Shown piece by piece: positions 6,265-6,952 of a stretch of DNA of 64,000 nt (the stretch's first letter is position 1; each line of letters begins with the position of its first letter). The notes beneath the pieces are model-generated. The model made no database searches, was not told the origin of the DNA, and was given only the letters and a program-made list of their open reading frames with translations. A program made the position numbers and the translations under genes. The stretch is from Thioalkalivibrio thiocyanodenitrificans ARhD 1 (GTDB taxonomy: Bacteria > Pseudomonadota > Gammaproteobacteria > Ectothiorhodospirales > Ectothiorhodospiraceae): positions 127,001 through 191,000 of the forward strand of contig NZ_KB900536.1 in assembly GCF_000378965.1 (NCBI RefSeq). Reading direction: 5' to 3'.

Positions 6265-6952
6265 GAATTGACTCTTGGCGAGTGAACCGGCCCGGCGGCA
6301 CGAGACGGGCCCAAAGCTTAGCAAATCCGGGCTGTTCACTCAATTGCGCATGAACCGGCCAGGTGCCCGGACCATGCACCGCAACATCGGCTCGGGGGCG
6401 CCCCAACACGGTGATTGCGCGCCTTTCGCCGATGACTCCGGGCCCGCGTTTCCGACCCGGAGATCCTTCATGTTGAGACCCCGGGCCTTGCAATCTGGCC
6501 CGGACTCCCACATGGTAAATAAGAGATCACCGTCCGGCCCGTGGCCGGGTGGCCACCCAGGGACCGGCTGCGGGTGATCCTGCCAGACCGTGGGAGCCGC
6601 CGGGAAATCGGCTCCAGGCTCGGTACCATCCCGCAGGGGACAACTGAAGTGGTCCGGCAGTATCCGGGCGCACGTCGTCACATCAGGGTCCGGACCATGC
6701 ATCCGGCCCATCCAACGGGGCCCCGGAACCCGGCGCCCCGTGAGGTCACAGTCCGCAGGGCCGGGCCGTCAGACCTCATCGCTGACAAACTCAAACGCGA
6801 TACCGACAACGGCGGCACAGCCGCCCACGAAACACCAGCCCCGTGGCGGCAGCAACCGGCGCCACGGCGGAAAACCGTGATACCGGTGACATCCGGGCCA
6901 TCCGGGTGCCGCCGATTCATCCTTCGAGCCAGTTCAACGAGGTAGGACAGCC
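6265..6952. other. 688-base non-coding divergent region and leader of the betaine operon
   Basis: I find no convincing gene between the divergent starts of pyrG and the betaine operon; the longest frame (minus strand, 6340-6711) has no recognisable protein character. The stretch holds several good inverted repeats: 6481-6487/6497-6503 (CCGGGCC, 9-base loop), 6541-6546/6551-6556 (GTGGCC, 4-base loop), 6741-6747/6772-6778 (TGAGGTC) and 6841-6848/6860-6867 (CCGTGGCG, 11-base loop). The direct repeat CCGGACCATGCA occurs near 6368 and 6691. The only clearly AT-rich spot is GGTAAATAAG at 6514-6523, a possible -10 region with no good -35. Regulatory function is inference. Confidence 0.55.

Follow-up and report, generated by a model that had tools for sequence, protein, structure and literature searches.

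A conserved promoter-like site and a putative structured leader in the divergent pyrG-gsmt region of Thioalkalivibrio thiocyanodenitrificans

Results

Layout and conservation of the pyrG-gsmt gap

The window, the whole stretch of DNA analyzed here, comprises 64,000 nucleotides of the soda-lake bacterium T. thiocyanodenitrificans ARhD 1 (contig NZ_KB900536.1, positions 127,001 to 191,000); all coordinates are window positions. The betaine synthesis genes gsmt (6953-7759) and sdmt (7756-8601) are followed by metK (8676-9845), all on the plus strand (6953-9845). These open reading frames have homologues in relatives, and the window gsmt shares 99% identity with that of a Thioalkalivibrio MAG and 96% with that of T. 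denitrificans ALJD. The ORF list places the minus-strand start of pyrG at 6264 and the plus-strand start of gsmt at 6953; exactly 688 gene-free bases (6265-6952) separate the two, as the initial annotation had counted. That annotation took the gap to be the leader of the betaine operon, omitting that pyrG and gsmt are divergent. Because of this arrangement a gsmt leader cannot take up all of the gap. Only the last ~430 bases can form one; the other ~260 bases make up the pyrG side, a spacer and the promoter. pyrG lies next to gsmt in all five genus genomes analyzed (G000-G004), and the gap is the only one of its kind in the genus. Outside the genus, among the loci examined, pyrG was found nearby only at the Ectothiorhodospira mobilis locus L045, ~1.5 kb off. 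Note that repeated GCATGGGCACGCTGCGCTTTGCCC-type copies occur between metK and a tilS-like gene (window ~10000-10210).

To follow conservation along the gap we used 4-fold degenerate sites in four genes (pyrG, gsmt, sdmt and metK) as a neutral yardstick (identity 0.91-0.97 to G001, 0.61-0.71 to G002 and 0.63-0.77 to G004). The pyrG 5' region (6265-6350, minus strand) is conserved, with 84/85, 71/86 and 67/86 identical positions in G001, G002 and G004, respectively. It contains a candidate pyrG promoter, read by eye on the minus strand, with TTGAGT (6343-6338) and TAAGCT (6320-6315) 17 bases apart; this candidate is absent from the output of a sigma-70 consensus scan. An inverted repeat (6280-6292/6329-6341) spans the candidate and is not clearly kept, since partner bases change in G002. 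The spacer between the two promoters (6351-6484) is poorly conserved (110/134 in G001, 54/134 in G002, and 42/76 in G004 with 58 further bases deleted). Conservation rises sharply at a promoter-like site (6485-6525), where 37/40 positions are identical to G002, compared to 0.61-0.71 at 4-fold sites and 0.40 in the spacer, and 31/41 to G004. Identity to G002 in the successive leader thirds is 76/120, 99/138 and 71/116 (0.61-0.72). Relative to G004 the leader is not alignable (0.46-0.54 identity with long deletions). Leader conservation is thus about the 4-fold rate or little above it, and clearly exceeds that of the spacer in G001 and G002. This identity profile indicates constraint at both ends of the regulation. 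We take the gap to be, most likely, a control region for two divergent genes.

The finding that the leader diverges from G002 about as fast as 4-fold sites do favors a promoter-only explanation, in which gsmt is transcribed from the site and the leader is a by-product of the site's distance, containing G/C-rich inverted repeats but having no regulatory role. We regard this explanation as on the whole unlikely.

A promoter-like site far upstream of gsmt

The promoter-like site of gsmt-sdmt-metK (6487-6519, plus strand) consists of a −35 element TTGCAA (6488-6493), 17 bases, and a −10 element CATGGT (6511-6516). Its sequence is CTTGCAATC, 15 bases, CATGGTAAAT, beginning at 6487, and it is located 466 bp upstream of gsmt. 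The 17-base spacing fits sigma-70; the consensus scan for sigma-70 does not report 6488-6516. The site is the sole zero-mismatch match in the window and the sole match at ≤1 mismatch in its own genome.

A search of 47 genomes of the window's family located the site far upstream of gsmt in all 37 genomes that carry gsmt, 31 at ≤1 mismatch and 6 by a looser score. Since the looser score also reached 12.0 at an unrelated locus (L111, at −115), these six rest on position too. Relative to gsmt, the sites range from −363 to −545 within the family and from −328 to −406 in 10 of 10 gsmt genomes of a sister family, f185. At ≤1 mismatch we obtained 39 matches in 34 of the 47 genomes: 31 before gsmt, 7 elsewhere and 1 at a contig end. 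The last belongs to a genome (G067) with no gsmt among the sequences analyzed. A reversed control pattern gave 10 matches in the same genomes. A wider regulon for the site was rejected, with only 7 other matches against these 10. The site is conserved, far upstream and near-exclusively linked to gsmt. The initial annotation had named lack of conservation, together with a transcription start just before gsmt, as evidence against a control element; what we find is a conserved site at a long distance.

The genes upstream of the site vary between loci. In the window's genus (g1) this gene is pyrG. Among ten mechanical ORFs scanned (two without match, one of no assigned function), three Thioalkalivibrio loci had purH, three Halorhodospira-type loci a DNA polymerase III alpha-like gene and one Ectothiorhodospira locus flavodoxin. 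The site and its distance thus travel with gsmt.

After removal of near-identical sequences 40 sites were left, the 17-bp spacing having been fixed in the search. TTG is present in 40/40, as are A2 and T6 of the −10 element, with G5 in 38/40 and C1 in 36/40 (−10 CANGGT); these counts describe rather than test the motif, because the search score rewarded those letters. The invariant A2 and T6 are those of sigma-70 −10 elements. The −10 element reads CATGGT in the window and CAGGGT in most relatives, the G/C-rich form being kept. Family f184 has a different spacing (TTGAAATC, TACGTT), family f166 a CAGCCT-like −10 element, and family f81 a similar site in 2 of its 8 gsmt genomes; the same site search found no such site at most of the more distant gsmt loci. 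At seven f184 loci (L167, L168, L169, L172, L173, L036, L166) another conserved leader block (CTTCGG... ACCTGC..CACCAGGT) precedes gsmt. In G003 the site is intact, and the leader and the first 38 gsmt codons are lost. The betaine genes of this genome are decayed (loci L019, L117), with matches to sdmt 1-99 and metK 274-389 side by side.

Conserved structure in the putative leader

With its start placed 7 bases after the −10 element (±2), the putative gsmt 5' leader would cover 6523-6952 on the plus strand, ~430 nt. The initial annotation's count of at least four good hairpins was borne out, at 6525-6579, 6593-6615, 6715-6741 and 6742-6777, as was its 8-pair stem ~90 bases before gsmt (6841-6848 with 6860-6867, plus strand), which ends 85 bases before the ATG. 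The 5'-most hairpin of the leader (6525-6579, stem GATCACC/GGTGATC) keeps 7/7 pairs in G000, G001 and G002, with one U-A to U-G change; it was not found in G004. The ACGGGGC/GCCCCGT hairpin (6715-6741) has one two-sided G-C to A-U change in G002, and 87.9% of its cells are paired. Directly after it, the hairpin GAGGTCAC/GTxxGACCTC (6742-6777) has 8 of 13 pairs invariant and 5 broken in G002 only. The 8-pair stem is part of a pair of mutually exclusive hairpins (6820-6867) that share CGTGGCG (from 6842) and use either an upstream (6820-6829) or a downstream (6860-6867) partner. Both are possible in G000, G001 and G002, with predicted preferences of 0.29:0.71, 0.04:0.96 and 0.98:0.02, respectively. 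We treat these competing stems as a lead only.

Folding of the gap exceeds chance (z −3.62; 0/20 dinucleotide shuffles as good). The putative leader had z −2.94 on the plus and −3.55 on the minus strand (0/60 shuffles as good on either strand), compared to −1.67 to +1.02 for coding controls in the same window (28 values, from 14 segments on both strands). The same stretch in congeners gave z values (plus/minus) of −3.03/−2.37 in G001, −0.59/−0.17 in G002 (no excess) and −2.09/−0.72 in G004. The alignment of G000, G001 and G002 reached −4.38 (plus) and −3.41 (minus), changing to −2.81 and −1.02 upon addition of G004; these alignment values derive from column shuffles, in which dinucleotides are not kept. 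Twenty coding-control alignments from the same three genomes ranged from −1.76 to +1.25. Other leader alignments gave −8.15/−7.6 (f185), −4.22/−2.54, −1.88/−1.37 and −1.64/−2.28 (Thioalkalivibrio A, B1 and B3), and −6.85/−4.1 and −5.21/−3.96 (Ectothiorhodospira). The excess is thus found on both strands, the plus strand being stronger in 7 of 8 alignments.

Two-sided changes occur in 11 of 109 consensus pairs of the window-genus leader, against 5.0 ± 1.7 expected (0/500 shuffles), and further pair types number 23 against 20.7 (43/500 shuffles), for three sequences only and a structure drawn from those same sequences. Within this limit of three sequences, the covariation expected of a structured leader RNA is present among close relatives. 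Structure is conserved in the leader among these relatives. The excess on the minus strand is a point in favor of a leader without regulatory role, but the conserved structure beyond 20 coding controls argues against it, as does the retention of a leader of >290 nt in 36/37 family genomes (the exception being the decayed G003) and 10/10 genomes of f185.

A distinct leader RNA in Halorhodospira-type genomes

Just downstream of the promoter-like site, ten Halorhodospira-type leaders (f185) have in common a multibranched RNA (~150 nt), described by a model, R1. Built on nine sequences, R1 has two-sided changes in 10/39 pairs against 5.2 ± 1.4 expected (0/500 shuffles), and 22 further pair types against 20.2 (107/500 shuffles). 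The held-out tenth leader (L062) scored 84 bits. In 54 genomes of its order, R1 gave one strong match in each of the ten f185 genomes with gsmt; a further seven matches were weak (E 0.3-0.9). This covarying RNA is a further point against a leader that is only a by-product. No Rfam family matches it. The Halorhodospira-type and window leaders have promoter class, gene and place in common but not the fold: R1 was not found in the window leader or genus, and its best matches in the window lie elsewhere (13.7 bits).

A single RNA fold across genera was rejected, as in 83 sources R1 recovers no loci other than those of f185; its best scores outside f185 were 18.9 bits (L024) and 18.1 bits (L055 and L173), L055 lacking the central helix. 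Nor are there leader sequence words common to genera above shuffles. Thus, of the alignment and covariation analysis that the initial annotation had proposed, covariation was recovered among three congeners, and no sequence or fold common to other genera. The absence of a shared sequence or fold is again what a by-product leader would predict.

Known RNA families and other signals

The pathway consumes SAM and makes SAH, and metK is in the same gene row, so that a SAM or SAH riboswitch controlling methylation would suit it. Yet neither the gap nor 20 related loci matched any Rfam family at gathering scores, SAM/SAH families included, and there is no sequence block common to the leaders. In a permissive Rfam scan of 6200-7000 the sole return was one sRNA model, with E 0.34 and on the opposite strand. 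We therefore rejected a known RNA of this or another kind, and consider a SAM/SAH riboswitch highly improbable. Thus, the control element suggested by the initial annotation finds backing in the conserved promoter-like site and in leader structure above coding controls, and none in the Rfam comparison that it had proposed. The only Rfam match of the window is a t44 RNA (RF00127; 33586-33682, minus strand, 63.5 bits).

Several simpler leader devices were also considered. A special 5'-terminal hairpin was rejected (first 75 nt, mean z −0.78 versus −0.71, p 0.31, 29 leaders). Ribosome-site sequestration had no trend over the 29 leaders, and a Rho-type excess of C over G had no clear one (C 3397 versus G 3313; maximum C minus G per 80 nt, 16 in the window). 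The lack of an accessibility signal and of a clear rut signal also fits a leader without regulatory role. An intrinsic terminator before gsmt was rejected, with one weak site found and 0.5 expected. The long ORF within the leader (GTG, 6541-6945) was taken as chance because G001 has a one-base insertion inside it.

Discussion

We consider it somewhat probable that the gap controls both divergent genes and holds a sigma-70-type gsmt promoter at 6488-6516, followed by a long structured leader. In the most likely mechanism, gsmt-sdmt(-metK) would be transcribed from this site, which combines a good −35 with a G/C-rich −10 element as in osmoregulated promoters. Its function as promoter and the start position are inferred. 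The mRNA would carry a ~430-nt leader folding into a chain of hairpins. The weak −10 element may hold basal output low and permit osmotic induction, and the leader may provide a second, post-transcriptional layer, acting on translation or mRNA stability. Together, the conserved promoter-like site and the likely folded untranslated RNA suggest that control of salt protection may act in two steps. A literature search, with subscription papers mostly outside its reach, found no earlier report of this gsmt promoter or leader.

The comparison with known osmoregulated promoters bears on the first step. Upstream of proV, the osmotic uptake operon proU (proVWX) of E. coli has TTGCCT, 16 bases and TAGGGTAGAAAA, a hexamer pair that we take to be proU promoter P2, the position of which agrees. 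Shared features are a good TTG-type −35 and a G/C-rich −10 element followed by A-rich bases (TAGGGTAGAAAA in proU, CAGGGTAGAAAA at gsmt locus L039). proU differs in its spacer of 16 rather than 17, its −35 TTGCCT, and its distance of ~60-70 bp from the gene, compared to 328-545 for gsmt sites. Under the gsmt −10 matrix the proU −10 element scored 11.46 bits, the best on both strands of a 1001-bp stretch (1/40 shuffles as high). Because the proU −35 differs, the full motif scored only 3.73 bits, less than the 11.51 bits of a chance site within proV.

The ect promoter of P. stutzeri (TTGAGA, 18 bases, TACCCT) is described in a review as being under osmotic control through the housekeeping sigma factor (PMC5924519). 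Like the gsmt site it is a sigma-70 promoter with a good −35 and a G/C-rich −10 element ahead of compatible-solute synthesis genes. It differs in −10 letters and spacer, and in that osmotic control was demonstrated for ect (PMC5924519). A consensus version of this promoter was still osmotically controlled according to the same review (PMC5924519), which indicates that the −10 element is not itself the sensor and that the determinant lies elsewhere. Two features of the proU/ect type, −35 and −10 elements at sigma-70 spacing and a G/C-rich −10 kept in relatives, are present at gsmt. The likeness is one of kind and no proof of osmotic control at gsmt; the sole hint that suggests salt sensing at gsmt is this resemblance of the −10 element to osmoregulated promoters.

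Data from T. versutus bear on the link between salt and betaine synthesis from glycine in halophiles. Betaine contents of T. versutus D301 were 8.1 versus 0.2 μmol/mg protein at 3.0 versus 0.4 M Na+, whereas gsmt/sdmt mRNA did not change significantly (PMC9062515). A 40-fold rise in betaine at unchanged, level mRNA calls for a layer after transcription and speaks against simple osmotic induction of a promoter. T. versutus AL2 and T. nitratis ALJ2 contain more betaine at 10 than at 30°C, the genes being slightly up in ALJ2 (PMC8092127). Both sets of data agree with a post-transcriptional level of control and less well with mere induction of the promoter.

From the unchanged mRNA the authors of PMC9062515 propose post-translational control. 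Control could accordingly reside at the enzyme, with neither promoter nor leader responding to salt. We think this rather unlikely: strong activation by K+ and Na+ is stated in the abstract of PMC3176816 for the archaeal GSMT, and is denied there for the bacterial GSMT and SDMT, and the kept promoter distance and leader would be left unexplained. Alternatively, RNase III or another nuclease specific for double strands could cut the hairpins in which the leader is rich, so that the mRNA is degraded at low salt and preserved at high salt. This mechanism is published for the osmotic genes betT, proU and bdm of E. coli, whose mRNA RNase III controls (PMC4067347). We judge it quite improbable for gsmt, as steady-state gsmt mRNA in T. 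versutus D301 was constant with salt (PMC9062515), and a 22-bp stem is named as needed in PMC4067347; the predicted folds contain no uninterrupted stem of that length.

Returning to the promoter and structured leader, a more far-reaching version can be formulated. In haloalkaliphilic bacteria of the Ectothiorhodospira type, a device dedicated to betaine synthesis would work in two steps: a proU-like promoter would be held in place far upstream, and a folded leader that evolves fast would allow GSMT translation to follow salt without a change in mRNA. In Halorhodospira the leader would have become an RNA class of its own (150 nt), perhaps a direct sensor of an ion or metabolite, and the window stems at 6820-6867 could be the switch. 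We offer this version as speculation and give it little credence. Independent of it, a promoter and leader kept across two families, with a covarying RNA in one, provide defined places at which to separate transcription, translation and mRNA life. The gsmt sites also add a broad natural collection to the class of promoters whose −10 element is G/C-rich, known before from single cases.

A second GSMT-like gene, with 45-47% identity, is present in seven genomes (G010, G012, G014, G016, G022, G032 and G390).
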